A stretch of 64,000 bases of DNA, taken from NCBI RefSeq assembly GCF_041381155.1, contig NC_091147.1, positions 15,723,318-15,787,317 of the forward strand, written 5' to 3'. Below the pieces are notes generated by a model. That model did not search any database, was not told where the DNA came from, and worked only from the letters and a program-made list of their open reading frames with translations. A program made the position numbers and the translations under genes. This DNA comes from Argopecten irradians. Its lineage: Eukaryota; Mollusca; Bivalvia; Pectinida; Pectinidae. Shown here piece by piece: positions 5,779-58,335 of this stretch (position 1 is its first letter; each line of letters starts with the position of its first letter).

Positions 5779-7862
5779 CTGTATAATACACTGTCTGTTC
5801 TATGGGACATTTTGTGTCCGATATAACAGGAACATATCTGTCTAATACACCGTCTGTTCTATGGGACATTTTATGTCCGATATAACAGGAACATATCTGT
5901 CTAATACACTGTCTGTTCTATGGGACATTTTATGTCCGATATAACAGGAACATATCTGTCTAATACAGTCTGTTCTATGGGACATTTTATGTCCGATATA
6001 ACAGGAACATAGGTGTATAATACAGTCTGTTCTATGTGACATTTTATGTCCGATATAACAGGAACATATCTGTATAATACACTGTCTGTTCTATGGGACA
6101 TTTTGTGTCCGATATAACAGGAACATATCTGTATAATACACTGTCTGTTCTATGGGACATTTTATGTTCCATATAACAAGAACATATGTATATAATACAC
6201 TGTCTGTTCTATGGGACATTTTATGTCCGATATAACAGGAACATATCTGTATAATTCACTGTCTGTTCTATGGGACATTTTGTGTCCGATATAACAGGAA
6301 CATATGTGTATAATACACTGTCTGTTCTATGGGACATTTTATGTCCGATATAACAGGAACATATCTGTATAATTCACTGTCTGTTCTATGGGACATTTTA
6401 TGTCCGATATAACAGGAACATATGTGTATAATACACTGTCTGTTCTATGGGACATTTTATGTCCGATATAACAGGAACATATCTGTATAATACACTGTCT
6501 GTTCTATGGGACATTTTGTGTCCGATATAACAGGAACATATCTGTCTAATACACTGTCTGTTCTATGGGACATTTTATGTCCGATATAACAGGAACATAT
6601 GTGTATAATACACTGTCTGTTCTATGGGACATTTTATGTCCGATATAACAGGAACATATCTGTCTAATACACTGTCTGTTCTATGGGACATTTTATGTCC
6701 GATATAACAGGAACATATCTGTATAATACACTGTCTGTTCTATGGGACATTTTATGTCCGATATAACAGGAACATATGTGTATAATACACTGTCTGTTCT
6801 ATGGGACATTTTATGTCCGATATAACAGGAACATATCTGTATAATACACTGTCTGTTCTAGGGGACATTTTGTGTCCGATATAACAGGAACATATCTGTA
6901 TAATACACTGTCTGTTCTATGGGACATTTTATGTCCTATATAACAGGAACATATCTGTATAATTCACTCTGTTCTATGGGACATTTTATGTCCGATATAA
7001 CAGGAACATATGTGTATAATACACTGTCTGTTCTATGGGACATTTTATGTCCGATATAACAGGAACATATCTGTATAATACACTGTCTGTTCTATGGGAC
7101 ATTTTATGTCCGATATAACAGGAACATATCTGTATAATACACTGTCTGTTCTATGGGACATTTTATGTCCGATATAACAGGAACATATGTGTATAATACA
7201 CTGTCTGTTCTATGGGACATTTTACGTCCGATATAACAGGAACATATCTGTATAATACACTGTCTGTTCTATGGGACATTTTATGTCCGATATAACAGGA
7301 ACATATCTGTATAATACACTGTCTGTTCTATGGGACATTTTATGTCCGATATAACAGGAACATATCTGTATAATACACTGTCTGTTCTATGGGACATTTT
7401 ATGTCCGATATAACAGGAACATATCTGTATAATACACTGTCTGTTCTATGGGACATTTTATGTCCCATATAACAAGAACATATGTATATAATACACTGTC
7501 TGTTCTATGGGACATTTTATGTCCGATATAACAGGAACATATGTGTATAATACACTGTCTGTTCTATGGGACACTTTATGTCTGATATAACAGGAACATA
7601 TCTGTATAATACACTGTCTGTTCTATGGGACATTTTATGTCCGATATAACAGGAACATATGTGTATAATACACTGTCTGTTCTATGGGACATTTTATGTC
7701 CGATATATCAGGAACAGTATGTATAATACATTATCTGTTCTATGGGACATTTTATGTCCGATATAACAGGAACTATGTGTATAATACAGTCTGTTCTATG
7801 GGACATTTTATGTCCAAAATAACAGGAACATATGTGTATAATACACTGTTCTATGGGACATT
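5779..7862 (+). repeat. 59-bp tandem array, left block
   Basis: About 35 tandem copies of a 59-bp unit whose core is GGGACATTTTATGTCC followed by GATATAACAGGAACATAT and GTATAATACACTGTCTG. Copies are mostly identical, differing by single bases (for example CTGTATAAT, GTGTATAAT or CTGTCTAAT). Each unit carries the dyad GGACAT-TTT-ATGTCC, and TGTTC/GGAACA can also pair across it. It is not a CRISPR: the units abut without spacers, and the context is eukaryotic. The same array in inverse orientation ends the region at 56.35-58.33 kb. It may serve as terminal or subterminal binding repeats of a large transposon (inference). Confidence 0.9.
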
Positions 7863-8447
7863 TTGTTCTACAGAATGTTCTGAACATATGTGTTTCATAT
7901 ATCAAAAACCATTATGTATTTATATGCCTCTCAACTGATGAAGCCCGGGCAATTAAAGAATGGTTAAATCAAAAGGGCAGAAACTCAATTGGCACTTATT
8001 TCATACTTTTTATCAATTTTGAATTATGATATTTAACAAAAATAAGAAAGAAAAAACAATATAGACACTGTGAAAGTAACAATAGTCATAAAAGTTGTAT
8101 CAATTAAATCATAAATGGAAGAATTTAAAAAGTGCCAATTGAGTCTTGAGGAAAATCATAAAATTGCAGACGTTTGTAATAAATATAAACAACTAGTAAT
8201 ATCTGTGAAACTTAATCAATAGGGTTCTCTTTGTCAGCTAGATATGTATAATATATAGTCTGTTCTACGGGACATTGAATATCCGACATAACAGGAACAT
8301 ATGTGTATAATACACTGTCTGTTCTATGGGACATTTTATGTCCGATATAACAGGAACATATCTGTATAATACACTGTCTATTCTATGGGACATTTTATGT
8401 CCGATATAACAGGAACATATCTGTATAATACACTGTCTATTCTATGG
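7850..8447 (+). repeat. Conserved segment of left terminal block
   Basis: After the 59-bp array comes a non-tandem segment, then three more 59-bp-type units (about 8244-8447). From about 7863 to 8400 it matches the inverted sequence at 55870-56350 almost base for base, and a more diverged direct copy lies at 16110-16460. It includes a conserved short open frame (about 7926-8026, STDEARAIKEWLNQKGRNSIG) and the leader exon at 8115-8171. ACTCAATTGGCACTT (about 7986) and AAGTGCCAATTGAGT (about 8131) are inverse copies. Confidence 0.85.
8115..8171 (+). CDS. Candidate leader exon in the left block
   Basis: An ATG opens 19 codons (MEEFKKCQLSLEENHKIAD) that end exactly at a gtttgt donor in phase 0. 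The identical exon lies inverted at 56040-56096, and a four-residue variant lies at 16378-16434. Which acceptor this left copy would use is unclear: the Crypton gene downstream has its own start, and the transposase exon is 8.4 kb away. Splicing is inferred from sequence only. Confidence 0.4.
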
Positions 8448-9753: not shown

Positions 9754-11490
9754 TTAAAGGATTTGTGCAGTCAAAAATGATAATTTCAGTTTATGCTAGA
9801 AATGAATTGTAAATGACGCTTGACGTACTTACACACCAAGGATTTATAGATGATTTTATAAGTCCTTGGTACACACTGATGATTGATCATCACAAGCATT
9901 GTATTGTGTGTTGTTAACCGAGAGAATTGAGATATATTAATAACTGTAATATGTTTCAACATGTGGTAGAAAGAATTTATTTTTTTATATCATAAAAGAT
10001 AAAAATATTGAGATAAGCTAAACAAACGAAAAAATATGAGTAGATACACTGATATAGATATATAATTAGCCATTCCTTTGTTTGATGGTTACATAATACC
10101 TGGACCAGGATGTTATTTACCTGTACGCACACTCATTCATAAAACTCATCTGTAATTACCTAGTCACGGGCAATTTGCTATTTGGTTGACTATGTTGGTT
10201 ATTTCCTATTGTTTTACTGTCAAGCAGGTTAGGAGACCCATTAAATATGCATTGTTATTTGAATTATGGGAAGCCCGTACATCTACAAGTGTATGTTTTT
10301 ATTGACACCTACATTTAAAATGTAGATGTGAAAGAAAAAGGAAATAAAATATCCTTTATCATACATGTGTACCCCTAGGAATATGTATTATGTGGGATGC
10401 ATGTAAAACATTTTAACAAGCTGAATCATTCAGCAACAAAAAAAATGACTAAGAAATATTTCAACTAAAGGTTTAATCTTGAAAATTCTTTCAGTTAAGT
10501 TCTGTAATTACAGAATCTTGGTGTGTAGTACATGAAATTTTGTTCGTAATTTCTAAGGTATTCACTGTGGATAATCTATAGTCATACACAAACGGTTACA
10601 TTACAGCATTACAACACAAAATATACTTATTTAAATATGACTGAGTTATTATAGATTATTTACAATACCTGTGTACAAGTAGTTTCATCCCAATGCCTTG
10701 ATAAATATAAGAAACTTGTCACCTCGGCTTTAGTATGAAGTAACACTTTATGTGGTTGCTTTTTGCAATTATATGATAAATGTTCATTTATTAAACCAGA
10801 AACATCTATACATAGTAAATATATGCTTCTGATTATACTATTTAAATCTCGATATGATATGCAAAAGGATCAACAATACAAAGGGATCGACAATGAAGAT
10901 ATGTATTTTGTTGTAAATACTGTATATTTTTATGTCGACCACTTGGATGACGAGTCTCTGACTCAAAGTGTTATCGACTCTAAATAAAGTCTATTATTAT
11001 TATTATTATATACCAGGATTTAGCATAATTTTAAAATAATGAATTTAAATCTGCACTTATACTGCAATTTAGAATATTAAGCAATATTTACATTTCAGTT
11101 TTCTCTCTGTTATATAACCTTACCAACTGCGATATGTGTTTACACTTGCGTAACCGCAGAGCCTTGCAGCGCAAGAATACATTGTTGACAGCGACAGCAA
11201 CAAAACTTGGCATGTTGCCAATTCTATCAATACACATCTACAGACCCATAATTCCTTTGTTAATTTTTGATAATGTACAGATACTTTGCGCTTTCACAGC
11301 TCAATTAAAAATGGCATATTATTTATTAATACAGTATTGTCAATTTCTTTTTTTTTTGTTAGGCACGAAATATATTATCATAGTTTGTCCGTATTTTCCG
11401 TTTCGATATTTGTTCAAAAATTAAATAAATAATAATACCGATTTGTTCATGGTCATCAATATCGTCGTCTGCTAAAAGTATCAGTCAACG

Positions 11491-13644
11491 ATGTCATCCG
11501 ACTCGAGCTCCGAGGAATTCAACATGGAAAAGGCTATGTATTCATATGGAAACTTTCAGGTTTCTTTAAATGAACAAAACGACGACGGATTTGTTTGTTC
11601 AGATGGTGAAGACATGGACACGTTACTGGAATCGATTGATGTGGGAGTGTTGCTAGCGGGTTCCATGTTATCCGAGGTTGAACTTCAATCCATTTCCGAA
11701 GCACTAAAAAGTCCAGCCGATCCCGACCTCCCTCCCCCAGAGATGCCCTCAACAAGCTTAAGTTCGTCTACATTTAGAGACACTAGTATGCCAAAGCAAG
11801 AGTCGGAATTAACCACACTTACCGGTAGTTCTGTGAGTGACAAACCTAGTAAAACATCTAGATTCAAAACTGTATCCGAAAAACAAATAAAGGACTACAA
11901 AGAAAGCAACCAAAGCAAGGCGACGAAAAAGAACACAGCGTGGGGTGTAAAACTGTTCCAAGGTAATTAATAACAACATCTAGACTGTCTATTTGTGCAC
12001 AATATTTTCAGAATTAAATACTGCGACTTATTTATCACTAGATCTACCAATGAAACTAAAAAAATACAGTATAATTTCGTACTATACTTCAATAGGCCTA
12101 CAGTACATGTTGAAATCCAAATGGTGAATTTATTCAAATCGTATACAACATTGTAAAAAGATACAATAGTGACGAAATAAAAGGAAATGCTTAAAGTCAA
12201 TATAGCATTCCACAATCATTCCATCAATACACGATTGAAAACTTCGTTGTTGCTTCCGATGTGTAGTTATTATGCTTCTATAAATCACCAAACAGTAAAC
12301 ACATTAATTGAGATTGTAATGACATTACGCGCCCCAGTGTTAACCACCTGTCAAAATGTCAAAGATTGGGTGGTAGGTCCAGATGAAAGTCGGACTAATC
12401 ACATGTCATATTCTCTTTCAGAATGGCATGTTGAAGTGTATGGCAATGAACTTGATTTGGCCACTGTTGAAGAAGATGCTTTGAACAAAATTCTCGCGAA
12501 CGTTCAACAACGCGAGGAAAAGATGGGACTTGCCCCTCAACATGCCGGGGAATATCACAAAAACTCTCTAAAAAATCTCAGGGCAGCTATTAACAGGAAA
12601 TTACAAGATCTGGGCAGAGATATCGATATCGTTAGAGATAAAGCTATTAAGCAGTCCAACAAAACTTTGAATGGACTTTTTACAGACAGAATGGTATCGG
12701 GAATGTCCAGACCAACAGCACACAAAGAAATCATATCCCAAGACCACCTAAGACAAATATCGTCTTACCTTGAACATGGCGCACTTTCCTCTCCTGTGGT
12801 CCTCCGTCAAGCCGTGTGGTATTCCCTGGCAATACACTTCGTTTCCAGGGGTGTCGAGTTCCATCACCAACTCCGTGTTGACAGTTTTTGTTTTAAATCT
12901 GACGAAAACGGAGAATACGCCACACTAACTTATGAAATAAAACAAAAAAATTTCCAAGGAGGTGTGTGTAATGTGGAAGCACAGTCAGACAAACGCATGT
13001 ATGCGACAGGTACAGCGAATTGCCCCGTGAAACTTCTCAGGACACTAATCAGTAAAACAGATCCCAAAGCTGGAAAACTTTTCAACAAACACACAGCTGA
13101 TTCGCGTCCAGATGTTCTGTGGTACAGCGATAAAATGCTCGCTCAACGTACATTTTCCAACTTTATGGCCGATATTTGTAAAGGTGCCGGCCTTGACAAA
13201 AAATACACGGCACATTGTTTACGTGCCACCTCAATACACGCGATGTCGGAAAGTGATTTCTCCACCCGCAGTATAATGTTCATGTCCGGTCATCGTAATG
13301 AGGCTTCTATCAGATCATATAGTAGATCGTTTTCTAGTGACCAAAAGAAAGCTTTGTCGACAACATTATCTACACTGGCACAGGGTAATGATCTCGGACC
13401 ACATGCAACGGTTACTCGTCCATCATCAACTGTTTCTCGTCCATCATCAACTGTTTCTCATCCATCATCAACGGTTGCACATTCTCCAGAAATCTCACCT
13501 ACTCCTCTGAACCAGTTATCACACGTTTCGATGAGCGATACCATTAGCCATCAAACATTTGCCAACAGTAATTCATCCTCATTCACAGCAGGGTTCCTGT
13601 CGCACTCAGTTTTTCACGGATGTAACTTTACATTTCAAAATTGA
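11491..13644 (+). CDS. Crypton-type tyrosine recombinase (KIAA1958-like), two exons, intact
   Basis: Exon 1 is 11491-11962 and exon 2 is 12422-13644. The intron starts gtaatt and ends ttctctttcag, and splicing restores LFQ|EWHVEV in frame, giving 564 residues. The N-terminal ~150 residues are acidic and Ser-rich; then RFKTVSE..IKDY and TKKNTAWGVKLFQEW match the SAM-like DNA-binding start of Crypton and KIAA1958 proteins. The C-terminal catalytic domain shows R300 (SRGVEF), H422 and R425 (HCLRAT), H448 (SGHRNE) and the nucleophile Y457 (RSYSR), so the recombinase set is complete. The tail carries four TVxxPSS-type repeats. The family cuts and rejoins DNA through a covalent tyrosine link; host-domesticated members act as nuclear proteins. 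An AATAAA lies at 13834, 190 bp past the stop. It could be a live mobile element or a domesticated gene. Confidence 0.88.
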
Positions 13645-13833
13645 CACACTGACATGCCCCTTTGATCTATTGCTTTGGTTTGAGCTGGATCACTGACTTG
13701 GTCAAGCCCTCATGTAAATGCGCATCCGATTATGTCAGATTTATCTGTATTGATAAATGTTCGATTTTTAATACAATGGGAATCTACATTTATGTATAAA
13801 AAATATAATATTTATGAAATATTGTACTAATAG

Positions 13834-13839
13834 AATAAA
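13834..13839 (+). terminator. Poly(A) signal of the Crypton-type gene
   Basis: AATAAA, at once repeated as AATAAAATAAAA, stands 190 bp after the recombinase stop codon in AT-rich sequence with no other plus-strand gene nearby. Confidence 0.5.
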
Positions 13840-15790: not shown

Positions 15791-16530
15791 CTATGATCTG
15801 CTACTTATGGGACATTTTATGTCCGATATAACAGGAACATATGTATATGACATAGTCTGTTCTACGGGACATTTTATGTGTGATACAACATGTACAGGAA
15901 CATACCTGTTTAATAGATTGTCTGTTCTATGGGACATTTTATGTCTGATATAACAGGAATATATGTATATACATCTAACATAGTCTGTTCTATGGGACAT
16001 TTTATGTCCAATATAACCGGAGCATATGTGTATAATACACTGTCTGTTCTATGTGACATTTTTTGTCCAATGTAACAGGATCAAATGTGTATAATACATC
16101 ATCTGTTCTATGGGACATTTAATTCTACAGGAAGTTCTGAACATACATGTACGTGTTTCATATATCAAAAACCATTATGTGTTTATATGCCTCTCAACTG
16201 ATGAAGCCCGGGCAATTATAGAATGGTTAAATCAAAAGGGCAGAAACTCAATTGGCACTTATTTCATACTTTTTATCAATTTTGAATTATGATATTTAAC
16301 AAAAATATGAAAGAAAAAACAATACAGACACTTTGAAAGAAACAATATTCATAAAAGTTGTAAAAATTGAATCATAAATGGAAGAATTTAGAAAGTGCCA
16401 ATTGAGTCTTGAGGAAAATCATAAAATTACGGATGTTTGTAATAAATATTAATATCTCTGAAACTTCATAAGTAGGTTGAATCATAAATGGAAGAATTCA
16501 GAAAGTGCCAATTGAGATCCCTTATATCAT
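15791..16530 (+). repeat. Middle, diverged copy of the terminal block
   Basis: Five or six diverged 59-bp-type units (15800-16110) are followed by the same conserved segment as at 7850-8300, including the STDEARAIIEWLNQKGRNSIG frame and the leader exon at 16378-16434. A second partial copy of the leader start follows at 16490-16515. The block has the same orientation as the left one and lies directly upstream of the KDZ transposase exons. Confidence 0.85.
16378..16434 (+). CDS. Candidate leader exon of the KDZ transposase gene
   Basis: ATG opens 19 codons, MEEFRKCQLSLEENHKITD, ending at a gtttgt donor in phase 0. The first recognised transposase exon begins in phase 0 at 16586, after a 151-bp intron ending ttatttcag, so the reading frame continues as ITD|STLRAP. 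The same leader in the right block precedes the protease gene in the same phase. It therefore looks like a 5' exon shared through the terminal repeats (inference; no transcript evidence). Confidence 0.5.
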
Positions 16531-16585: not shown

Positions 16586-19500
16586 TCAACATTAAGAGCA
16601 CCTGATTTACTTAAAAAAATCAGACACCATAACGAAGGAAAATACGATTTCAAAAAAATTCCCCTTCTGAAAGGAACAAGGAACAAAAACCTAAAAGGGC
16701 GTCCCCATGCTATTGCCGAGGTATCCCCACGTAAAAGAAAAGCAGATGAGGACTATGCAGTTTCACATGAACCTGTAAGTAGACTTTAATTTACTTCATC
16801 TGATCTCCATATTTTGACAATATTTAAAATTATTTTCCCTTAAATAAGTGAATTTTGTTTAACAGACACTTGGACATGCTTTGCTGTGTAACATACATTG
16901 GATGTTCTAGCATATCCAGTGATGCATGTTAGCTTTTTTTTGTACATCACTCTAGGTTCTAGGATATAGACAACCTACATGAGATATTTGCATGTGCTCA
17001 CATAGGATAAGAAAATCAAAGTACTGCAAATACAACGCAACAGAAAAATAGAATGAAATCAAATGCATTTCCAAAATCAAATATATAAACCATATTATAT
17101 GAATTATTTCAAGAACATTCAACTGATCACAGAAAATACATATGTTTTGTTTTACATTTTTCTTAATTAAAGTTCCTACATAAAAATTACAAAGAAAACA
17201 AAAGTCTTCATTAAAATGAGTTTTTATCCTTATACTCTTGTTTCTTATGTTGCACATACACTTATTTTGGTAAAACCATGCACACATGAGGGCAGCCTTA
17301 TAAATTAGTTTGCCTTTACCTCAGATCTGTATTTAACAACGATTTAAAAACATTATTTTAAGGTTCACAGAAAGGGCATCTTTATAACTCTTATGTCTAT
17401 AAGCCTTAGATAGTAAGTCCAATTTGAATTATCTTTAACAGAGATTATGTAAGTTGGACAGAGGAGTCACCAGCAAGCAACATTTGACCTAGATGGGCTG
17501 TGTATTATGTAACACTCTGTGTATTCAATACACACTCTGGGTATTCTACCAATCAGAAGGCAGTCTTCCCATGACTACTGATTGGTCCAAAGGATTATTA
17601 TTCAATGAATGGGGAATTTATGAATGGAAGTTTATGAATGAAATGGTTCAAGAGGTCACCACTAGATGTCATTGTAGGGCAAGTCCTACACAGTCCTACA
17701 CATCATAGTAAACCGGATAGCAATGATACAAACGCTAGTCGCGTTGTATTAAAAACAAGAGGCCCAGAGGGCCTGTATCGCTCACCTGGTTTGTGATGGC
17801 AAGAAATGTTCTAAATACAGATTCATTATTTCTTTTATGAAGGAATTTACCTCTTAATTTCCCATAGTGGTTCCTGCCCCTCCTGTCCCCAGGGGGGTCA
17901 GAGACAAAATTTATACAAACTCTATTCCCCTTCCCCAAAGGATAGTTTCTGGCCAAATTTGGTTACAATCCATGCAGAACTCTATGACAAGTAGTGATTT
18001 AAAGGAAATGCTATGTGCCAGGTGAGCTCTAAAAAACAATTCACTCTTTTGTGGTGAGACAAGAGATTTCAACTCTTGGTATAAGATTCTTAAGCTGTCA
18101 AACACTCGACATAGCTTCATGTTTGACAGCTTAAGCATCAGAATCTTACCCCTGACGTTGAGATTCTACTAATCTCACACCAAAGAAAATGAAAGATAAT
18201 AATAATCCTCCACCTCCTAAACCTGACATATTCTTCACTGTTGGTTATAGCCACTTAACCATATAATACATACCAAAACATAATTGGTTATTTGGTTTTG
18301 TATTGCATTTTCATTGCAGTTACACCAAATATCTGCAATCCAAGAGATTGATGTTGATTTGGTTCCATCTTTAAACATCGAGGAATGCTATTTGAATGGC
18401 ATCAAAGAACAAGGTGGATTGTTTTCTATCGATAACATTTTCCATTCATTCATTTTGATGGACTTTTCGGAAGAAACCAAAACAGTAAAGGTTTGTTATT
18501 TTCATTGTATACAATTCAAGTAATGAAAGATTTATTTAATAGAATTTGTTTTTTAATATGGAAATAATAAATCAGAGTGTATTGTTAATAATTATTATTC
18601 AATTTCATCCAGTGAACTTCAAAATGTTTTGATGGAGCCTTTTTTTCAAAGATATTGCTCCATTGTTTTATCTGTCACACAGACACCATGATACAAGCAA
18701 TATTTAATTATATGAAATTGATAATATAATAAGTCAATTCAAATTCTTTGACGGACTATCTTTTAACTTGAAGAATTCCTGATTAATGTCACTATCAAAA
18801 TTTAATTAAACTTAAATACAATTTTGTTAACAATTACAAAATGTCTATGGTAGCATCTGTATTCCAAGAATTTGTTTTGTAGAACAACAAATTCGTGTTT
18901 CTAAAACGGAAGGTCAACAATTTTGAGGATGTTGGTTGCTGGGTATATTCATGTTCTTGCGAGCCAGCTAGAGCTGAGTTAATCGCTTGTTTGGACAACA
19001 ATTTGGATGTTTCCTTTGATGGTAATTCTTTTACTTCACTTTAAACTAGTTTGTGGCCATTATGACTTTCTTATGACTTGCATGTAAGTGTCTTTAATCA
19101 CATAACTGACCTGTTCATATCAGAAATTGTAAGACATGCATGTAATAACACTTGTGACGTAATAGGTTGTTATGAAATCATAACCAATGAATGATGTTGG
19201 TCATGTGATTTATTCGGTAGATGGGAACAACACATTTGAGTCTGCTTTCTAATATTTTATATAGAGACAAAATTTGAAGTTTTGCTGATATTTCCATGAA
19301 TAAAAGTTGAATCTTAAACGATATTTAATAAGTTCCATATTACATATAGTCGTGTGTGTAAGATTCTATTTAACACATAACTTTTCTTGGTGAAAATATA
19401 AACAAAAATTTTCACATAAACTTAACGTTTATTGTTTATACTATTATTATTATATCATAAAATGGGTATATAATCTATCCTCATTTAAAACCACTAGATT

Positions 19501-45200: not shown

Positions 45201-48200
45201 ACTTTTGGCCCCTCCCACAGCCCCCTGGGGGAGGGGGGACCATATAATTCACAATTTTGATTACCTTATGCCTTAGAAGGTTTGTGCATAATTACATTGA
45301 AATTGATTCAGCGGTTTTGGAGAAGAAGTCGAAAATGTAAATTGTTTACGGACATACGATGGACGACGGACAAAAGGCGATTAGAATAGGTCACTTGAGA
45401 CTTCGTCTCAGGTGACCTAAATATCAAAATTAAAAGAATCTCTATCCAATATCGAAACTTCATATTCATTATACAACTCACAGTCAAACAGGCTTATGTT
45501 GATGATTTGTGTGAATATGAAATGTCAAAATTAAAATATATCCGTATACAATCAATTACAAAAATAACACAATACAATACATCATCAATAGTAGCAAAAA
45601 CTCACTTCCATGACCTTGTGCTGCATGCTAGGGTCAAAAATGAGTGACATCACACTGCAAGGCAAATATTGTGTGGTGATCTGAAAAGCAAATTAATTTT
45701 TACTTGTGTAATTGAAGTTAGTTTATCAATTACAACTTTGGATCAATTGATGATAAAAATATATATACTGTAAAAATAATGATAAAAAATCAAAATAGAT
45801 ATCGACTATGGTTAAATTTTGCTTACCTGGTACAAGCTTTAGTGAGAAACGGCATGTTACACAGATTTACAGTTTGCAAACAATTTGTAATGTCCAAAAA
45901 ACATGTTTCTTTCCTAGTAACTCAACTCAAATTCAATCCCAGGTTAATAGTACTTCATATGTAGCCATTGAAGTTTTTATGTATGAAAATAGTAAAATCT
46001 AACAGATAATTGCCATCATCAAATGAAAGGACAACCATTATCTGTTATTACAGTATATTTACCTCTTTTCTTCTAACTCTTGTCATCATGTATGCATCAA
46101 TAACCTACAAAATTTATAATTATATATAACAAGAGGCCCATGGACCTAATAACAGTCACCTGTTATCTGATACAAATTAGTTATGTCATTCACAAGCCAA
46201 CTGATGTCTTTTGTTCACGAAAAAGGATCATAAATCTAATAGGCCAAGGTCTATATACAAAGTTTCAATAAGCTTGGTGCATATATACTCACATTATCAT
46301 GTTCAACAGGTTCAATAATTATTATTGCAAAGGGCAATAACTCCGTAATTAAATTAGAGTAGGATCAAGCTGATTTTCGAAGTCATCTGTGATCTTTCCA
46401 ATGTTAGTCTACATACAGAGTTTAGATTAAGTTGGGCGCATATTTACTCAAGTTATTGTGTTAACAAGGTACAATCATAATTATTAGTGCAAAGGGCAAG
46501 AACTCTTTCAATTGCAGTCAAACCAGGCCAATTTTCGAACTTGTCAGAGATCTTTCCAATGTTAGTCTACATATAAAATTTCATTAAACTCAATTTATAT
46601 TTACTCAAGTTCTGGTGCTGACAAGTTCAAGTAATAATTATTAGTGTAAAGGGCAATAACTCTGTAAATTACAATCAAGCTGATTTTCTAACTCCTCCAA
46701 GATCTATCCGATGTTAGTCTACATATAAAGTTTCATTAAACTCGGTGCAACTCGGACAAAAGACTATCGTAATAGGTCACCATGACCTATGGTCAGGTGA
46801 CCAAAAATACTGTATTCACGGTAATAAGCACCCATCCCCTTTTCTTGAGAAGAGGGGAACTTGTGTAGATGCCACATCCCATGTTTGATTAAAAGCATCC
46901 ACATGTACTTACTTCATCAGAAATCTTGTTCTGAAGAAATTTCACAGTCGTAGAATAAATTCTAACTCCTGCTACAATAGCAACGAGTATATTCCTGTGC
47001 AATTTTCTGGCATTCCAAATGCTGAGGATATCTGAAATGTGATATCAATTACAGCTACAAATATGCATTATAAATTATCACTACAGCGTAGGTTTGGTTT
47101 TAGAGTTTATTATTCTTACCAGTCAATAATTCTACCCAATCAAATATGTCAAGGTGGATCAGCATATTGTCATAGTAAAGTCTAACATTTCTTGCTATAC
47201 ATTTTTTAAACAGAGAACTGAATTGACATGCATCAGATATAAATATACGAACTAGGGTTACTTTAATTTCATATTGGCTATTTGTTTTACATAGTTATAA
47301 ATATATACTTACACTTGTGCAATTGTTCTTCGTTGCTTTCTTTGGCAATGGCAGAGGCAATAGCAAAGTCATCATTTACAGAAGTAGCCACAGAACTGGG
47401 TGCCACACTAACCACAGGACTGGGTGCCACACTAGCCACAGGACTGGGTGCCACACTAGCCACGGGACTGGGTGCAACACTAGCCACGGGACTGTATGCC
47501 ACACTAGCCACAGGACTTGGTGCCACACTAGCCACAGGACTTGGTGCCACACTAGCCACAGGACTATGTGCCAAACTAGCCATGGGACTGGTTGCCACAC
47601 TAGCCACAGGACTGGGTGCCACACTAGTCTCGGGACTGGGTGCCACACTAGTCTCGGGGCTGGGTGACACACTAGTCTCGGGGCTGGGTGACACACTAGT
47701 CTCGGGGCTGGGTGACACACTAGTCTCGGGGCTGGGTGACACACTAGTCTCGGGACTGGGTGACACACTAGTCTCGGGACTGGGTGACACACTAGTCTCG
47801 GGGCTGGGTGACACACTAGTCTCGGGGCTGGGTGACACACTAGTCTCGGTGCTGGGTGACACACTAGTCTCGGGGCTGGGTGACACACTAGTCTCGGTGC
47901 TGGGTGACACACTAGTCTCGGGGCTGGGTGACACACTAGTCTCGGTGCTGGGTGACACACTAGTCTCGGTGCTGGGTGACACACTAGTCTCGGTGCTGGG
48001 TGACACACTAGTCTCGGTGCTGGGTGACACACTAGTCTCGGGGCTGGGTGACACACTAGTCTCGGTGCTGGGTGACACACTAGTCTCGGTGCTGGGTGAC
48101 ACACTAGTCTCGGGGCTGGGTGACACACTAGTCTCGGGGCTAGAATGGGTATGGATGTCTTCTCTGAAAGAAGCAAGGAGAAATACATGTATCATTAAAT

Positions 48201-51200
48201 CTGTTAAAACTCATTTTAATCCTTTAGATTTAAATGGTACAAATATTTAAATTAGTAAAATCTATATATGTGAAATTAACAAAATCAATAAACAAATGTG
48301 TAACTTTTAATTTATGCAAGCTGCCAATGATATAGAGCTCGGATGCATTAATGAGAAGCAAGTTAGAGAAAAGCTGATGGTAATGTTCAAAAATGTTTTG
48401 TTGCTTATATATTTATCCCACAAAAATCGAATATAAAGGAAGGCTTTCATGTATTGTCAATGCAACATGTAATTGAAAATGAAGATATGTATTCCTAGAA
48501 TTTTTGCCAGACCTTTAGAGTGTCCAGTAGACGGACCCATTTCATTTGGAAAATAGCACTGTATTTTCCCAAATTGCGTCAGTATTTTCTAAATGGAAGT
48601 ATAATCAAGTGAAAACTCGAAATGTCCATATCTCATATATATACCTTTGAAATCAGTAATTAATATCTTAAAAAGTTGAAAATATTGCTTGAAAATCTTA
48701 TATTTTATAACAATTTTTTCTGTATGCAATTCATGAAGCCAGAAAAATTAAATTATATTTGTGTTTAAATCCCTATTCTATTTACTAGATCAAAAATGAA
48801 GAGAGTGTTTACAAAATGCGAAAATATCTTAAGCCTACTTTGTTATATGCTTATTGCCACTTTGGTATTATTTCAAAAAACTGAAGAAAATTTAATCAAA
48901 ATGATGATGATGCTTTTCCCCAATTTTTTCTTAGGGTTGTTTTCCAAAAATAGGTGGCAAAAACCCTGTATGCTGATAGAATGATACACAACATATTTCA
49001 CATATATATATCTGTATATATGCCAAGCCAATTATCCATCAATTCATTTTGAAACTATAACAAGACATTTTGACAATAAATATTTGACTTAAAGGGACAG
49101 TTCACTGAGACTGATTCTTTAACATAACCACAAGGCAAAATGTGACATAAATATATTGTTCTACATTCCTTATGAAACATATAACAAGAAATATTGACAA
49201 ATTTCACGACATTGTAAGTGTTTTAATTGATACCGCTGAGATTCCAAATTGTATAGCAATACGATTCAGCAGGTACAACATGTATGCTGTACCCATATCC
49301 AAGCCAAAGTCACACTCGTTAAACAAATGCAATACATAACCACTGAGGAATTGATGAATTTTTTTAGAAAAGAACATGCATCTAATAAGGTTAACACACT
49401 ACTGTAAGAGTGATTTGAGTAGTTCTAGACAAAAAAGTCTTTACTACACTGGCAATGGCCAGGATTGGCATACAAGACACCCGACCACAATGTGTAATAG
49501 TGGACAACAAGTGAGTTTGAACATTTCACAAAGATTTCACTACAGTGGGCTTTTCTGGCGTATCACAGTAAAATCAACTAATCTTATTTCTATGAGAACT
49601 GGTTTGTTTCCTATATATATGCGGATTTTAATGTACTCTTAGACTGAATTGTCCCTTTAATCTAAAATATCTGTCAAAAATATGCTAATCATACACCAAT
49701 GAACAACAAAAATAACATAAAAAAAATAAGAGATGCAACTCCTGAGCCAGGTACTAAATGATATATTCTAGGTTCATCTGGTGCTGCTGGTTGCCAACAT
49801 GTTTCAGCCTTAAAGGCAGGCCGTCATCAGGGCACAGCTTGCATATAACAGTGTACCAGTTACAAATAGTATAGTTTGACAATAGAGGTTATGTGATAAT
49901 AACAATGTATTATGCAACATAGATAAGTTGCTAAGGCAGTAAGGGAGAAAATGATAAAAAGCTAAATGGTGATTGGTGTAAATTTTAAGAATATGAATGC
50001 AAAAGTTTTATGAAATTTAAAAGATGACTGATACAATAGAAATAATAAATTAGTTTTATGAGGATATATGAGTAGGAATAAATTAAATATGTATAGTTAA
50101 TAAATTCCATATAGTAAATGTAAGCTGTATGAGAATAACAAGAATAACAGTTATTTCAAAATTAGAAAAAAACAATCTAGAGCAATCTGAGCTATGAGAA
50201 TAGTATCATAATATCACAAAGGAACAAAGAAGATTAACATAGATGTTAGGGCCCAACATTAATCAAATCTTCAGCCAGACAAGTCACTCGCATTAAAGAG
50301 AGAATATAAAACATTGAATCAAATTAATAATCTGTGACCCTCAGGTTCAATATCCCTCCACATTCTTCTTATCCTGTCAAGTCTTATAATATTTGTTTTC
50401 ATTATGAAAATCAATGGGAATGATAAACATACCATATGATACCCGATAACGTTTGTGCAGTACTAGTATCTCCAACGTCACTCTTTGTTATCTTCCCACT
50501 GAAATGAAATTAGTGTGGGACATCATCGTACATCATTCCATCACCAATAGATACAATAGTCCCGCACAAACGTTAACTTATCGGGTATCACGTGGTACGT
50601 GAATTATCCTCATTCTAGATGATAATAAGTTACTGTGAACACAGAAATCATTAATGTTGAGCACATTGTTTAAGTCAAAGTAAATGAAATCAAATATTTC
50701 AAACTCATTCAAAATAAATAACACAAACAATAACATTGCAAATGCAACAATCCTTATCAAGAGGTACAAACATAATATAATCATCTTGGCAATTCTGAAG
50801 ATATGACGCCATAACTGCCCGAAGATCTTTTACATTCAATCTGCCATGCCCTAATAAATAAATACATTTTTTACACATCACTGGATTGGTAATTTATTCT
50901 AGGAAAGCAAATAATTTAAATTAAAACATTATATCAGCTCATTTGATTTCATGTTGTTTTTACTGATGTGATCTCTTCTGAGGCGGGGGCATAAAAACTG
51001 TAATTAATTTTTGATAATATATTAATACAAAATAAAAGATAAAATAAATTACAATTAATTAATCATTTTTTAAATTTCTTTTTCCAATTCAATATGCAAC
51101 ATCAATGTCTATGTTCCAATAGCATTACCTTTTTTTTTGCCATCTTTGTCAAATAAATCACATACAAACAATGGAAAAATAATTTACCTTTTGAGTAACT

Positions 51201-54200
51201 GTTTGGAGAACTAAAGGGAACCCTTGTTGGCCACCATGATGGCTTATTTGTAGCTATATAAACATTCTTCCCTGTGATTTTGAACAAAAATAAATTGATT
51301 ATATTCATTATTTAGCTAAAAATGTATTAGCTAAATTAGTTTTTTCCCCCATAATTCAATATCAAGTAATCTCTTCAAAGAATTTAGTGTTTTTTAAGAG
51401 TTCTAGATTACCGAAAAATTAAATACTCTGTGGACTGGGCATCCAATATTTACTGGTTGGAATCTCATATCATTTGTTATTTGGAGAGTACATGTTAAGT
51501 CTCATTGATAGCGGGAGTTTCCACTTAGGTGTTAGCAGAATTTGACATCTGAAATTGAATCTCTAGCTATGTTTACTGACGCTTACAATGCAATATTTAA
51601 TTTGGGTGAGTCTGGAGAAGGAATTGATGAAATAGACAGTCTCTTTGACAATAGACAGTGGGAAATTATGAAAACACAGCCTTAAGATGAAGGTTTTCCA
51701 GGTAATATGCTTACATATTGTAAGATTTAATTTGATGTTTTATAATAAGATGGAATAATAAAGAGAGTATGGAAAGCAGAAGTAGAGGAATTATCTAAAT
51801 TTATTAATCAACCTAAATATCCTTAGAGAGTGTTGTCATGCAAACAGGGTTTTAGATGAACTACTAAAGCAACATGCTCAATCAGGCAGTCTGACACCAA
51901 CAGAGCATAAACCTGTGATTGAAAATGCAGTCTTGGACAAATTTTCCTATTTTATACTAATCAAACGGTTTAAACAATCCAATGATTCTAATAACAAAAC
52001 AATTAGTGTGGAATTTCACACTCTGTTGTCGACAGAATCTTTCACATTCATGTTGCAAAACATGTGGCAAAGAGTATGAAACTCTGTGCAAGAAAAGAAT
52101 CACAAAGAAGGGACAAATTCTTTCAGGGCCCCCGACTGGGAGAGGAAAACAATCGAACTGTTAATGACTATAGTCATTAAGCAAGACACTAATATACATT
52201 ACACTTTAAGCTTCTCACAAACTATGAATCCTTTTTGTACCAGAAACAGACCTTGTCAAAACCAGCCCTCTACTCTACACTGGAAAAAGAACAGTTGCAA
52301 ATCCTATAATTGTCACCGGGACTGCCAATGTTTAGTCAATCCTGGAAGGTTTGCCACGACCAGAAACTCCAGTATCTCCGCAAAACATGCCTAGTTATAT
52401 TATAATACAGCTAAATCAAACAGATTTCCGACTGTATCTGAAGAAGAATTAGACAAGTCTGTCTCAAAGTAGGCAGGCAACAAATACTAAGAAAAATACA
52501 GCCCGGGGGATGAGACTTTTCCAAGGTAAGTGCAATATAGTAACAGCTAGGCCTAACACTACATGATTGTTGAAGTGTACAAAATACTGTGTAACATATT
52601 GTTAATTGAAACCAATGGACTACCTTACTACCTTATAGTTTATACAAGCAGTCGTAATGTTCCAACAGTACCAACCTTGTCAACAACTATATCACAGAAA
52701 TACTCTTAAAAATATAAGAGGGACAATAAAACATTATTTATCAGAGATCCATTGCAACATTGATATCATCAGGCAGGAAGTTGTCATTCAAATACCAGAA
52801 ACGTAACCATTCAGCCTGTTGACACACGTGGTAACACCGTCACTGATGAACATCTCGCAATCCCTTACCAGATCAGACACCAAATAGTGAGTGCCATTCC
52901 GATTTCTTTTACTAGGATTGGCTTCTTATCAACTGTTTGTCCCATCTGGTAACAGTTTAATACTTGAATATTTATGCTATTATATATTAAGTACCTTTTA
53001 ACCCCTGTCTTTTCAGAATAGCTGGGATGATTAGACAGAGAGCATCCCATGTGTACTCTTCAGCATCATCTGATGGCAGCTCCATAAAATGTCGTAGAGG
53101 CAATTCAGCTGCATAAAAAACAGTATTAAATTCTAGAAAGAGATATCTTATTACAGTTCAACAATAAGAACAAGACAATAGTCAATAACAAACAACACAT
53201 AGAATCAGTTATCATGAAGCTCATTTGTCAAAATAAATACTAAACTGAGCTGAACCTTTTCATTGTATCTCATATGCTATTCTGAAAGTGTCATGCTATT
53301 TATATAACATGTATATGGCATGGAATTCATTACTGTAAAAAAAAGTTAAGCTCTTGAAAGAAACTCTAGTCTAAAGTCACCCTTCATGAAAAATGTCGAA
53401 GTAATTGGTAAGCAAATTTGAGAAAGATCCCTCCAGTACTTTCTGAGAAATAGCGGTAAAAACCTTTAACTATCAAAATAGTGGACAACAGACAACGGAC
53501 GAATGGCAATTTGAATAAAATAGGCTAAAAATGTAATTTCAAATCTACGTTACAATAAATACATATTTACCTTTTTAAAAACTTCAATACTCAGTATTAT
53601 GCCTAATTATCTATACCTGTGCTTATGACAGCTCGGCTTTCTTGTAACCGCATTTCAACAGGCCTTTTTAAAGCATAACGCTTAAAAAGGTCACCTGCTT
53701 CCCGGCAGAAACCCTCCATGTGCTCAGGAGCTAAAATGAAATGGAATGAAAACTATACATATTTATGCTAAATATGTGTTTTGATAATAATATAATATTG
53801 ACCCCCACCCCTTAACAAATGTTTATAAGTACACAAGGGGCCCAGAGGGCCTGTATCTCTCAACTGGTTTTATTTCAATTAGTTATTTATTACCACAAAA
53901 ATTTATAAGATTACTTTCAGAGAAGTTGTTTATTTGAAAACAGTCAAATTAACCCCTTTGTGTTACCAATCAGGCTCCATTGGAAGGAAGATTCAATTTT
54001 GTATCTCCACCATATATATAACGATGCTACCAATATAATTATGCAATAGAAATGCTATAAAAATGCTTATAAATTCACACTTTTGGCCTTGCCTTTTATG
54101 CCCTTGTGAGGTCATCCCCACCAAAAGTCTTTGGACCAGGTGAAAATGTCTTACCAAAGAAGTCAATTTGGCCATTTTTACCCAAGTACATCATGGCCAT

Positions 54201-55805
54201 ACTTGGAGTGGCATTTCCTGAGTCATTGCACCACTGCTGTGCCTATATAAAAATATAGAAAAACCTTCATTATGACACACAATTTACATATTTTGTAAAT
54301 AACTCTATAGATCTTTCATTTTATGTTATGAAGTAAAATATCAAACAGGATCCTTAACGGTCACCTGATATTTGATACAAATTAGTTATGTCATTTACTA
54401 GCCAAGTGATGTCTTTTGTTCACAAAATAGGAACATACATCTAATAGGTCTACATACAAAGTTTCATCAAGCTTGGTGCATATGTACTCACAATATTGTG
54501 TTCACCATGTTAAATAATTATTATTGCAAAGGGTAATAACTCCGTAAATAAGTTAGAGTCAAATCAAGCTTATTTTCAATCTTGTTCAAGATATTTCCAA
54601 TGTTACCTATATAGTCAATATGCAAAGTTTCATTAAGCTTGGATCACATTCACTCAAGTTATTGTGTTCACAAGATAAAATAATTATAGTTGCAAAGGTC
54701 AATAACTCCGTAAGTAACAAACTAATCAGGTCGATTTTCAAACTTGTCCGAGATCTTTCCAATTTTAGTCTGAATACAAAGTTTCATGAAGCTGAGTGCA
54801 TATTTATTCAAGTTATTGTATTCACAAGGTCCAATAGTAATTATTAGTGCAAAGGGCGATAACTCCGTAAATTATCATTGGATTAAGCTGATTTTCGATC
54901 TTGTCCAAGATCTATCCAATGTTAGTCTACATACAAAGTTTCATTAAGCTCAGTTTATATTTAGCCCTCTGGAGGACTAGTGTTTGGAAGTATATATTTA
55001 CTAAAGTTATTGTGTTCACCCAATAATAATTACTAGTGCAAAGGGCCATAACTCCGTTAATTACTGTCGAACTATGCTGATTTCCAAACTCGTCCGAGAT
55101 ATTTCCAATGTTAGTCTACATACAAAGTTTCATTAAGCTAGGTTAATATTTACTCAAGTTATCACGTTCACAAGGAAATGTTACCGGACGTCACACGACG
55201 ATCGACGACAGACAAAAGGCGATTGCAATAATATTATCTGTTCCTGTTATATAGGACATGAAATGTCCCAAATGCCTATATATTTGAATGAAATGTCACT
55301 AAATCAAATACTCTCTTTCAAGATATAAAAACCACCATATTACATTGCCTCACATTATTTGTATCTCATTAATCATCTTTAGCAAAATTTGGTGTAAAAG
55401 GGGTAAATTTCATGCAACTTATTATGTTATTTTGTTCAAACAATGTAAGATTTGTTAAATTACCTCCAACCTCATCATTATAAAACAAAGGTGAACACAA
55501 CTCTAAGCAGACAAGATTATGAGACATCAGGAAGATAATCAAACAATTCAGAAATTGAAAGATGTAAATCTATAAGATATTACTTAAGTTTCAGTATGTT
55601 TGTCTGGGTTCCATTAACTAATTTTGGTAGCAGTGTACAGTTAGAACTAATGGCCATGGGTGAGATTTTTATTAAGCAAAAAGCACATGTTTTATTGGAA
55701 AAAATGAAAAAAATGAAAGAAATATAAAAAAAAATATACATATACCCTTTTGCACAGCAACTCCCATTGACGGGATAATCGTTTCGCTTTCGATTCCGCT
55801 TTGAC
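39241..55805 (-). CDS. Ulp1/C48-type cysteine protease with coding minisatellite and PHD-like tail, seventeen exons
   Basis: Exons in gene order: 55746-55805, 54155-54242, 53617-53730, 52995-53108, 51188-51271, 50772-50850, 50433-50498, 47313-48139, 46913-47031, 46063-46104, 45606-45680, 44864-44929, 44352-44440, 43887-43989, 43267-43372, 41213-41277, 39241-39351. Phases match throughout, giving 735 residues plus a possible 19-residue leader. The C-terminal third is a Ulp1 fold: VIDAYMM start, catalytic His in GQHWIFC (about 574), Asp in IVIIDPLGENW (about 591), Gln in SKQMDS (about 630) and Cys in SCGIFCLK (about 636), followed by YRIEVLKEILQNQ. The end, CRFCFK...DDQW|VVQCKYQALNW, resembles a worn PHD finger. 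The N-terminal region (NKPSWWPTRVPFSSPN) is unrecognised. Ulp1 proteases remove SUMO-like tags, and KDZ transposons often carry one. The exon 8 acceptor (ctag before 48139) was chosen because the stronger cag at 48164 would create a stop at the junction. Confidence 0.83.
39615..40250. repeat. Dispersed repeat, GACGGA-tailed family
   Basis: Same family and order of phrases as 26345-27015 (GGGATCTTGGCACCCACCAA, GATCTATGTCTGACAATGGA, CAAGATGGC...), ending near GGACGGAAGGAGGGACGGAG. It lies in the last intron of the protease gene (39352-41212). Confidence 0.7.
40873..41040. repeat. Near-perfect 70-bp-arm palindrome
   Basis: AAGGAATAGATTTTGATTTT...GATAATGGAGCC is matched by the inverse GGCTCCATTATC...CTATTCCTT with a loop near 15 bp. 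It is non-coding, probably a foldback MITE, in the last intron of the protease gene. Confidence 0.8.
41062..41178. repeat. Short GAGGCTC / CACCTGAG repeat
   Basis: It begins AACAAGAGGCTCTTGGGGCT and GCTCACCTGAG and ends GTCTCAGGTGACC, so the ends are inverted. It is a 115-bp internally deleted member of the GAGGCCC family. Confidence 0.65.
41914..42036. repeat. TTAA-type palindromic MITE
   Basis: AACAATTAAAGGATTGTTAG...ATTTATTG is matched by its inverse CAATAAAT...CTTTAATTGTT. It carries TTAAAGG ends like the other TTAA elements here. Confidence 0.7.
42135..43110. repeat. GATATCAGCCC palindromic repeat cluster
   Basis: At 42145-42275, TGACAATTTTGATATCGCAC and its inverse enclose several TATCAGCCC / GGGCTGATA copies. 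A second cluster at about 42990-43090 repeats GATATCAGCCCGGGCTGATATC. These may be the two ends of one ~1-kb insertion in the protease intron between 41278 and 43266. The tract between them shows no gene. Confidence 0.6.
44952..45421. repeat. GAGGCCC dispersed repeat in a protease intron
   Basis: It begins AACAAGAGGCCCATGGGTCT, contains CCCCTCCCACAGCCCCCTGG and ends GACAAAAGGCGATTAGAATAGGTC then TCTCAGGTGACC. Confidence 0.75.
46131..46805. repeat. GAGGCCC repeat with internal ~150-bp repeats
   Basis: It begins AACAAGAGGCCCATGGACCT and ends GGTCAGGTGACC. In between, GGGCAATAACTC, ATCTTTCCAATGTTAGTCTA and AAGTTTCATTAA recur about every 150 bp. A sister copy lies at 54345-55240. Confidence 0.75.
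47390..48139 (-). repeat. 24-bp coding minisatellite in exon 8 of the protease gene
   Basis: About 31 tandem 24-bp units, read on the minus strand as SPSPETSV, SPSTETSV or (at the 3' end) SPVASVA, make a roughly 250-residue Ser/Thr/Pro spacer within a 276-codon exon. The exon exits the repeat into VATSVNDDFAIASAIAKESN and then a good donor. No unit contains a stop in either direction, which explains long open frames on the opposite strand. Units grade from the older VASV type to the younger ETSV type. The role may be a mucin-like flexible linker (inference). Confidence 0.85.
49087..49664. repeat. TTAA-bounded MITE, copy 2
   Basis: Starts TTAAAGGGACAGTTCACTGA and ends CTGAATTGTCCCTTTAA. The interior is alignable with 38-616 along its length, with scattered differences. 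It sits in the protease intron 48140-50432. Confidence 0.75.
49789..49834 (-). ncRNA. Second hammerhead-like motif
   Basis: On the minus strand: helix I strand TGCC, core CTGATGA (49824-49830), helix II GGCCT/AGGCT with loop GCCTTTA, then GAAA, self-complementary ACATGT, and cleavage after U in GTT before GGCA. An extra C follows the core at the same place as in the motif at 21267. The surroundings (49680-49860) resemble a terminal scrap of a Penelope-type element, but no protein piece is present. Confidence 0.6.
51570..52545 (+). pseudogene. Decayed Crypton first exon
   Basis: The 3' part reads NRFPTVSEEELDKS and then, in another frame, NTKKNTARGMRLFQ followed by a gtaagt donor, matching RFKTVSE and TKKNTAWGVKLFQ at the same place in the intact Crypton exon 1. 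The opening near 51570 (MFTDAYNAIFNLGESGEGID) is acidic, as expected. Frameshifts and stops break it, for example a TAG just after DKSVSK, and the catalytic exon is not found downstream. It sits antisense in the protease intron 51272-52994. Confidence 0.65.
53405..53535. repeat. Fragment of GACGGA-tailed dispersed family
   Basis: GAGAAAGATCCCTCCAGTAC, TTTCTGAGAAATAGCGGTAA and GACAACGGACGAATGG are shared with 39615-40250. It lies in the protease intron 53109-53616. Confidence 0.55.
53834..54142. repeat. GAGGGCC dispersed repeat
   Basis: It begins CAAGGGGCCCAGAGGGCCTG and TCTCTCAACTGG and ends TGGACCAGGTGAAAATG, just 13 bp before protease exon 2. Confidence 0.6.
54345..55240. repeat. Long GAGGCCC-family repeat with ~150-bp internal units
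   Basis: It begins near GGATCCTTAACGGTCACCTG and ends GACAAAAGGCGATTGCAAT. Internally, GCAAAGGGC.ATAACTCCGT and CCAATGTTAGTCTACATACA recur five or six times. Sister of 46131-46805. Confidence 0.75.
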
Positions 55806-55861
55806 CTGTAAAATAACATGTAATATAAAAAGTCATGAATCATCTTCGATTTTGTTCCTGT

Positions 55862-56350
55862 TATATCGAACATAAAACGTCCCATAGAATAGACAGTGTA
55901 TTATACACATATGTTCCTGTTATGTCGGATATTCAATGTCCCGTAGAACAGACTATATATTATACATATCTAGCTGACAAAGAGAACCCTATTGATTAAG
56001 TTTCACAGATATTACTAGTTGTTTATATTTATTACAAACGTCTGCAATTTTATGATTTTCCTCAAGACTCAATTGGCACTTTTTAAATTCTTCCATTTAT
56101 GATTTAATTGATACAACTTTTATGACTATTGTTACTTTCACAGTGTCTATATTGTTTTTTCTTTCTTATTTTTGTTAAATATCATAATTCAAAATTGATA
56201 AAAAGTATGAAATAAGTGCCAATTGAGTTTCTGCCCTTTTGATTTAACCATTCTTTAATTGCCCGGGCTTCATCAGTTGAGAGGCATATAAATACATAAT
56301 GGTTTTTGATATATGAAACACATATGTTCAGAACATCCTGTAGAACAAAA
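55862..56350 (-). repeat. Conserved segment of right terminal block
   Basis: This is the inverse of 7850-8400: AACAATATAGACACTGTGAA, the MEEF leader, the STDEARAIKEWLNQKG frame and the 59-bp-type flanks agree almost base for base. It lies 57 bp upstream of protease exon 1. The two blocks are far more alike than either is to the middle copy at 15.8-16.5 kb, so left and right have recently been homogenised or duplicated. Confidence 0.88.
56040..56096 (-). CDS. Candidate leader exon of the Ulp1-type protease gene
   Basis: ATG opens MEEFKKCQLSLEENHKIAD and ends at a gtttgt donor in phase 0. Protease exon 1 starts in phase 0 at 55805 after a 234-bp intron ending ttattttacag, giving IAD|VKAESK in frame. 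It has the same structure as the transposase leader at 16378-16434. Predicted by eye only. Confidence 0.5.
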
Positions 56351-56351
56351 T

Positions 56352-58335
56352 GTCCCATATAACAGTGTATTATACACATATGTTCCTGTTATTTTGGACA
56401 TAAAATGTCCCATAGAACAGACAGTATATTATACAGATATGTTCCTGTTATATCGGACATAAAATGTCCCATAGAACAGACAGTGTATTATACAGATATG
56501 TTCCTGTTATATCGGACATAAAATGTCCCATAGAACAGACAGTGTATTATACAGATATGTTCCTGTTATATCGGACATAAAATGTCCCATAGAACAGCCA
56601 CAGGACTATGTGCCACACTAGCCACGGGACTGGGTGCCACACTAGCCAAAGGACTGGGTGCCACACTAGCCACAGGATTGTGTGCCACACTAGCCACAGG
56701 ACTGGGTGTCACACTAGCCACTGGTGCCACACTGGGTGCCACACTACCACATAGACAGGACTGTGCCACACTAAGGTGCCACACAGAACAAAATGTCCCA
56801 TAGAACAGTGTATTATACACATATGTTCCTGTTATTTTGGACATAAAATGTCCCATAGAACAGACAGTGTATATAATACAGATATGTTCCTGTTATATCG
56901 GACATAAAATGTCCCATAGAACAGACAGTGAATTATACAGATATGTTCCTGTTATATCGGACATAAAATGTCCCATAGAACACGACAGTGTATTATACAG
57001 ATATGTTCCTGTTATATCGGACATAAAATGTCCCATAGAACAGACAGTGTATTATACAGATATGTTCCTGTTATATTGGACATAAAATGTCCCATAGAAC
57101 AGATCATGTATTATACATACAGTTCCTGTAATATCTGACATAAAACGTCCCATAGAACAGATAATGTATGATACCTACTGTTCCTGTTATATTGGACATA
57201 AAATGTCCCATAGAACAGATCATGTATTATACATACTGTTCCTGTTATATTGGACATAAAATGTCCCATAGAACAGATCATGTTTTTTAATATTGTTCCT
57301 GTTATATCTGACATAAAACGTCCCATTGAACAGATTGTGTATTATACATACAACTGTATCCTGTTCAATGGACGGTTTTATGTCAGATATAACAGGATGT
57401 CTATGTCCCATAGAACAGATTGTGTATTATACATTCTGTTCCTGTTATATCAGACATAAAATGTCCCATAGAACAGATCATGTATTATACATACTGTTCC
57501 TGTTATATCTGACATAAAACGTCCCATTGAACAGATTGTGTATTATACATACTGTTCCTGTTATATTGGACATAAAATGTCCCATAGAACAGACAGTGTA
57601 TTATACATACTGTTCCTGTTATATCAGACATAAAATGTCCCATAGAACAGATAATGTATTATACATACTGTTCCTGATATATCTGACATAAAACGTCCAA
57701 TAGAACAGATTGTGTATTATACATACTGTTCCTGTTATATTGGACATAAAAATGTCCCATAGAACAGATCATGTATTTTACATACTGTTCCTGTGAATAT
57801 ATTTTGTATTATACATACTGATCCTGTTATATTTGACATAAAATGTCCCATAGAACAGATTGTGTATTATACATACTGTTCCTGTTATATCTGACATAAA
57901 ACGTCCCATAGAACAGATCATGTATTATAAATAGTGTTCCTGTTTTATCAGACATAAAACATCCCATAGAACAGATTTTGTATTTTACATACTGTTCCTG
58001 TTTTATCAGACATAAAACGTCCCATAGAACAGATCTTATATTATACATATACTGTTCCTGTTATATCAGACATAAAACGTCCCATAGAACAGATCTTATA
58101 TTATACATATACTGTTCCTGTTATATTGGACATAAAATGTCCCATAGAACAGATCATGTTTTATACTTACTGTTCCTGTTATATCAAGACATAAAACGTT
58201 CCATAGAACAGATTGTATATGATACTGTTCCTGTTATACCGAGACATAAAACGTCCCTTAGAACAGATCATGTATTATACATACTGTTCCTGTTATATCA
58301 GACATAAAACGTCCTGTAAAACAGACTGTTTGTTA
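56352..58335 (-). repeat. 59-bp tandem array, right block
   Basis: The same 59-bp family as 5779-7862 in inverse orientation, about 30 units. Inner units are close to the left consensus. Outer units (57100-58330) are more diverged and lean to CATACTGTTCCTG and GATCATGTATTATAC variants. One unit at about 57355-57400 is inverted. The array is interrupted at 56597-56785 by a piece of the 24-bp minisatellite. Confidence 0.88.
56597..56785. repeat. Minisatellite fragment inserted in the 59-bp array
   Basis: About seven units of CCACACTAGCCACAGGACTG type, matching the older VASV-type end of the protease exon 8 minisatellite 9 kb away in the same DNA orientation, lie inside a 59-bp array. The junction is at CATAGAACAG|CCACAGGACT. 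Gene conversion or template switching is likely. Confidence 0.85.

Follow-up and report, generated by a model that had tools for sequence, protein, structure and literature searches.

Genes and repeat blocks in the window

The window, by which we mean the whole 64-kb stretch of animal, probably bivalve, DNA analysed, holds a predicted plus-strand KDZ transposase gene and a predicted minus-strand gene for a Ulp1-type protease with a PHD finger (Ulp1-PHD). The two run towards each other onto a 62-bp satellite, with the KDZ gene ending about 140 bp short of it. Three related repeat blocks, in each of which a core of ~370 bp adjoins a 59-bp array, accompany these genes, and a predicted Crypton-type tyrosine recombinase gene lies between the left and middle blocks (Table 1). 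The original prediction of convergent KDZ and Ulp1 genes enclosed by inverted blocks was borne out in this respect, the blocks lying near the 5' ends of both genes. No tRNA or Rfam families were found within the 64-kb window.

Table 1. Features of the locus, with positions counted from the first base of the window
Feature	Position	Strand	Description
Left block	5779-8447	+	59-bp array (~35 units), core 7870-8237, short inner array 8245-8447
Predicted Crypton-type tyrosine recombinase gene	11491-13644	+	open frames 11476-11970, 12181-13644; between left and middle blocks
Middle block	15806-16520	+	same sense as left; decayed 59-bp array, 5-6 units, plus core
Predicted KDZ transposase gene	16586-32486	+	753 codons in nine modelled exons, free of inner stops
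KDZ exons 1-5	16586-16774, 18320-18490, 24728-25145, 25513-25648, 27933-28223	+	modelled
KDZ exons 6-9	28878-29524, 31599-31682, 31973-32095, 32284-32486 (stop)	+	modelled
62-bp satellite	32625-37743	.	between the convergent KDZ and Ulp1 genes
Predicted Ulp1/adenain-type protease and PHD gene	40314-53730	-	two open exon runs
Ulp1 gene, run 1	53730-53617, 53108-52995, 51271-51188	-	three exons, open
Ulp1 gene, run 2	44929-44864, 44440-44352, 43989-43887, 43390-43267, 41277-41213, 40418-40314 (stop)	-	six exons
Ulp1 gene, unjoined stretches	50850 onward; 48163-47313	-	second stretch with 24-bp repeats
24-bp minisatellite	47396-48141	-	8-aa repeats in candidate Ulp1-gene exon; related units within right block
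Candidate first Ulp1-gene exon	55746-55805	-	60 nt, 48 bp inward of right block
Right block	55853-58335	-	inverted; inner array, core ~55971-56338, 59-bp units, outer 58-bp units
24-bp repeats	56596-56721		inserted in right block array; related to 24-bp repeats of Ulp1-gene exon

Predicted genes and their neighbours

Both gene models are sequence predictions, and the openness of their exons carries no p-value because the exons were picked for being open. The first two KDZ exons came from a splice-plus-coding scan and are in phase with the rest. Pfam profile PF18758 (KDZ; cut-off 26.6 bits) matched the C-terminal 145 aa at 32.0 bits, over profile positions 76-206 of 217, and a 448-aa piece at 29.0 bits. 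On this catalytic domain we place the predicted product in the KDZ transposase superfamily. The 696-aa model gave no KDZ match at E values up to 1; its matches were a CxC4 cysteine cluster (E 2e-5; 24.9 bits, under the cut-off of 26.9) and one chance hit. NCBIfam returned nothing for the KDZ piece. Read-through frames on the plus strand at 22.6-32.5 kb and on the minus strand at 37.7-47.0 kb had no Pfam match at E 0.01, presumably because introns split the domains; the joined models did score. No start codon was located for the KDZ gene. The exon at 16586 contains no ATG, and the gene must therefore start in or beyond the middle block; a search for a first exon within the blocks yielded no good donor. 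An open reading frame beginning MEEF, identical in the left and right cores, was rejected as a coding first exon for want of a good splice donor.

The Ulp1-PHD gene was recovered in two runs, the part between them (50.8-44.9 kb) being not fully joined, and some of its splice sites scored poorly. The earlier statement that both genes are open across all predicted splices thus held for the nine KDZ exons and, for the Ulp1 gene, within two separate runs with the middle part unjoined. The candidate first exon has weak coding status because it is open in three frames. The predicted protease domain matched Peptidase_C5 at 21.7 bits (cut-off 21.3) and C48 at 19.5 bits (cut-off 20.7), and a PHD finger follows on its C-terminal side (27.0 bits; cut-off 24). 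The segments HW, IDPLG and QMDSTSCG in the translation are what we take to be the His-Asp-Gln-Cys protease residues. With this domain and these residues, the product is a predicted Ulp1 (C48/C5) cysteine protease, as had been proposed; the match to SENP1 itself was weak (E 0.42). The N-terminal run of the model (51188-53730, minus strand) has a weak match to an Nrf1 DNA-binding domain (E 0.031, below the cut-off).

Multi-exon models free of inner stops might also be expected of host genes, that is, of KDZ- and Ulp1-derived sequences domesticated and kept in place, with the blocks serving as shared promoter modules. We regard this as quite improbable: multi-exon genes are normal for Zisupton elements (PMC9297572), and the near-identical, array-bearing blocks suggest recent turnover.

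The recombinase frame at 12181-13644 matched Phage_integrase at 40.3 bits and DUF3504 at 37.8 bits, both above cut-off, and both matches were repeated on the joined model. Its translation has residues in the order R..HxxR..H..Y, presumably the catalytic ones. A tyrosine recombinase with R-H-R-Y identifies the predicted gene as a Crypton, and it looks intact. A plus-strand segment at 52351-52803, in an intron of the Ulp1 gene, weakly matches this recombinase (22.9% identity, E 5e-5) and is possibly an old remnant. Open frames at 19871-20784 (plus strand) resemble the N-terminus of a Penelope-like element; Pfam gave no match there. A dispersed repeat pair, 36-612 and 49087-49660, is 80% alike. 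A PDB search with one plus-strand frame from 58.3-64 kb gave nothing.

The locus had also been described as lying in a POLA1 intron. Searching with a human POLA1 probe, we found minus-strand POLA1 exons to the left of the left block at 3603-3493 (E 4e-15) and 4217-4059 (E 4e-11), and weaker pieces at 2130-2062 (E 0.03) and 2796-2683 (E 0.08). With this probe, neither N-terminal POLA1 exons nor any exon to the right of the blocks was found in the window. The intron placement is unsupported because no exon was found on the right.

Repeat blocks: similarity, spacing and ends

Tandem Repeats Finder (TRF) placed arrays at 5779-7864, 8245-8447, 15806-16120 and 55853-55966, with 56362-58325 split over several entries. 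The middle block has no inner array; its homology to the other blocks stops at 16476, and a partial core repeat extends it to ~16516. An inverted pair, 7776-8358 and 55853-56435, is 98% identical over 583 nt, and the middle and right cores (16150-16457 and 56017-56324, inverted) are 94% identical over 308 nt. With gaps set apart, the left and right cores, with 48 kb between them, differ at a single one of 365 aligned bases (364 matches), whereas the middle core differs from them by about 6% (left/middle: 305 matches and 20 mismatches in 325 aligned; right/middle: 303 and 19 in 322). The middle array is also decayed, with a TRF match level of 76% compared to 95% for the left array. In the right block the outer array is built of 58-bp variant units and is ~83% like the left one. 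Near-identity of the blocks, as claimed, therefore applies to the core and adjacent units and not to the long arrays. A palindrome, in its commonest form GGACATTTTATGTCC, occurs in 28 of the 39 units in the left block, 2 of the 6 in the middle block and 13 of the 32 in the right block.

When a profile of the 59-bp unit was run on the window with the blocks masked, one clear match appeared, at 55236-55270 on the minus strand (E 2.3e-8). This single unit lies inward of the right block and in the same orientation. A doubtful match outward of the right block, at 58442-58464, had an E value of 0.38, with the best reversed-sequence control at 0.54. The 24-bp repeats inside the right block are co-oriented with those of the candidate Ulp1-gene exon, the best long match being 86%, and, read by eye, the array-to-core junction text of the right block is present twice, around these repeats. 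Repair with template switching within one unit would produce such a patch. Helitron-type ends were considered for the blocks and, by eye, did not fit.

All blocks share the order array-core-gene, pointing inward. The first recognisable KDZ exon (16586) begins 110 bp from the end of the middle-block homology and 70 bp from the partial core repeat; on the other side, the first sure Ulp1 exon lies 2.1 kb inward of the right block, beyond the much closer candidate exon. The left block faces the recombinase gene at 3 kb. When three blocks were placed at random, with 55803 taken as the Ulp1 exon start, both genes fell within 110 bp of a block in 6e-6 of draws; the fraction was 1.25e-4 with the sure Ulp1 exon only (2.1 kb), and 1.2e-3 when the limits were relaxed to 1 kb and 2.2 kb. 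These draws are post hoc, since the spacing was noticed after the fact. The spacing and orientation relative to both genes support a single unit.

The ends of such a unit were less clear. At the left/right block edges there were 0 shared 8-mers and 3 shared 7-mers (control mean 7.7). The middle/right edges shared 7 8-mers (control mean 4.8; 7 was reached by 0.03 of 400 random pairs), which are AT-rich, the longest being ATAAAAATATA at 15759/58394, besides one TGATTCTT at 15712/58438. A check for an 8-bp target duplication thus found no convincing one, the middle/right matches being chance-like. The 30 bases just inside five placements of the ends gave 4-11 inverted-end matches (random mean 8.2, 95% point 12), so none of the five shows terminal inverted repeats (TIRs). 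Aligning the left and right blocks did not define outer ends either: homology breaks off within the arrays, and when 800-bp flanks on the outer and inner sides were compared in six pairings, no shared terminal sequence rose above shuffles.

These results bear on the reading that the blocks are an independent, dispersed, satellite-bearing repeat, perhaps non-autonomous, which landed three times, with the KDZ and Ulp1 genes residing independently in a region rich in repeats. Within 64 kb there are three copies, unequal in age and with uneven ends, and large-unit termini were not found. The edges of the right block alone share 7 8-mers, the longest being CCTGTAAAA at 55805/58313 and ATATAAAAA at 55823/58392; these counts were reached by 0.02-0.05 of random pairs, and with longest matches of 9 bp the right block may have inserted on its own. 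Other dispersed repeats occur inside and outside the proposed unit, such as the 80% pair described above, which has one member in each. In the Pacific oyster, mobile elements have been reported to carry satellite-like arrays (PMC7492417). Against this stand the orientation of the blocks towards, and their closeness to, the first exons of both genes, the finding of just one clear array unit elsewhere in the window, and the left and middle blocks, which taken singly have no duplicated flanks other than array text or chance matches. We consider independent insertion possible and, on balance, rather doubtful.

A proposed giant KDZ element and its relatives

The best single reading, which we hold tentatively and at slightly below an even chance, is that the blocks and both genes form one very large KDZ DNA transposon, autonomous or recently so. 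It would span ~42.5 kb if it starts at the middle block or, with the tyrosine recombinase included, ~52.5 kb if it starts at the left one. The scarcity of 59-bp units elsewhere, the 364/365 match of the left and right cores and the above-threshold KDZ domain support one unit; against it are the presence of three blocks instead of two and the fact that the two best-matched blocks (left/right) are not the two that adjoin the genes (middle/right). Gene conversion, or an older and a younger copy nested together, would explain this conflict. The proposal of one mobile unit of either length thus draws support from orientation, spacing and domains, and lacks a convincing duplication and defined termini. 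Around the left block no remnants of KDZ or Ulp1 turned up, as tblastn with these proteins gave no additional match below E 0.2. No further copies were confirmed in viral-contig and prokaryote-genome collections, and 10 pattern matches in the prokaryote genomes were discarded, none being upheld by tblastn.

We infer that such an element would be mobile and would work as follows. Its ends would be the long inverted blocks, whose 59-bp arrays with the palindrome are putative binding sites for the transposase or an accessory protein, and the unique core of each block would be a putative promoter or leader for the inward gene. The KDZ transposase gene would be transcribed from the left side and the Ulp1-PHD gene from the right side, the two converging on the satellite. 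Cutting at the element ends would fall to the transposase. The Ulp1-PHD protein may have an accessory role, to judge from the plant VANDAL/KIU elements, which bear Ulp1 and counteract the silencing directed at them.

As a sub-case of this giant-element reading, a 52.5-kb composite of three genes (tyrosine recombinase, KDZ and Ulp1), each with a block ahead of it, could truly end at the left and right blocks. Besides their nearly identical cores, both blocks have an inner array, and the recombinase gene and the left block face the same way. We think this unlikely: the recombinase gene begins as far as 3 kb from the left block, gene conversion could make the blocks alike, and Cryptons are independent elements. 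Animal Cryptons lack terminal repeats (PMC3212892), and the limits of the recombinase element cannot be drawn for that reason. The fullest version, a three-gene animal transposon of 52.5 kb with a block before each gene and a Ulp1-PHD protein that binds the 59-bp arrays against silencing, strikes us as very improbable.

Large size as such is already known among KDZ elements, and the expectation that they are usually far smaller needs a caveat: elements of 30.3 kb in Ectocarpus and 31.7 kb in Chlamydomonas are reported (PMC12477816). The locus resembles these algal elements in its KDZ catalytic domain, its proposed length and perhaps a CxC-type cluster (here just under cut-off); for Ectocarpus, nested elements and extra genes are reported as well (PMC12477816). 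KDZ1-3 of Cryptococcus are 9-11 kb long, with TIRs of 139-241 bp and duplications of 4-8 bp (PMC12810828). Target duplications are given as 8 bp for Zisupton-type elements and 7 bp for Kyakuja (PMC12730594), and Pristionchus Zisupton, whose genes are multi-exon, has inverted ends for which that study found no duplications (PMC9297572). The locus differs from the superfamily in its 42-52 kb, its array-bearing inverted blocks, its Ulp1-PHD partner gene and the lack of a detected TIR or target duplication. No pairing of Zisupton with Ulp1, or of Kyakuja with Ulp1 and transposase, was found in an open-licence library of papers. If it is one mobile unit, it would be larger than the reported KDZ elements compared here, and an animal KDZ element would then share the MuDR-like arrangement in which two genes start at inverted ends and converge.

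Maize MuDR itself has a transposase of another superfamily and TIRs of about 215 bp, and is far smaller than 42-52 kb. It is alike in that transposase and second gene are convergent, with promoters in the terminal inverted repeats (PMC3440606). Arabidopsis VANDAL/KIU is alike in carrying a Ulp1-domain protein that recognises motifs in the transposon's own non-coding DNA (PMC13317346); it differs in being a non-TIR plant element with a MULE transposase, and here recognition and anti-silencing are conjectural. Hypomethylation is reported for VANDAL/KIU, and the same review describes what the Ulp1 domain itself does as unknown (PMC13317346). With a SUMO-protease-like partner in one mobile unit, transposon-encoded anti-silencing would become testable in an animal. 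The oomycete CryptonF and CryptonS likewise have a C48 (Ulp1) peptidase alongside a tyrosine recombinase; no KDZ is named in what PMC3212892 says of them, and in our case the recombinase occupies a separate segment between the left and middle blocks. KDZ domains are reported to be enriched in Crassostrea gigas (PMC10546077).
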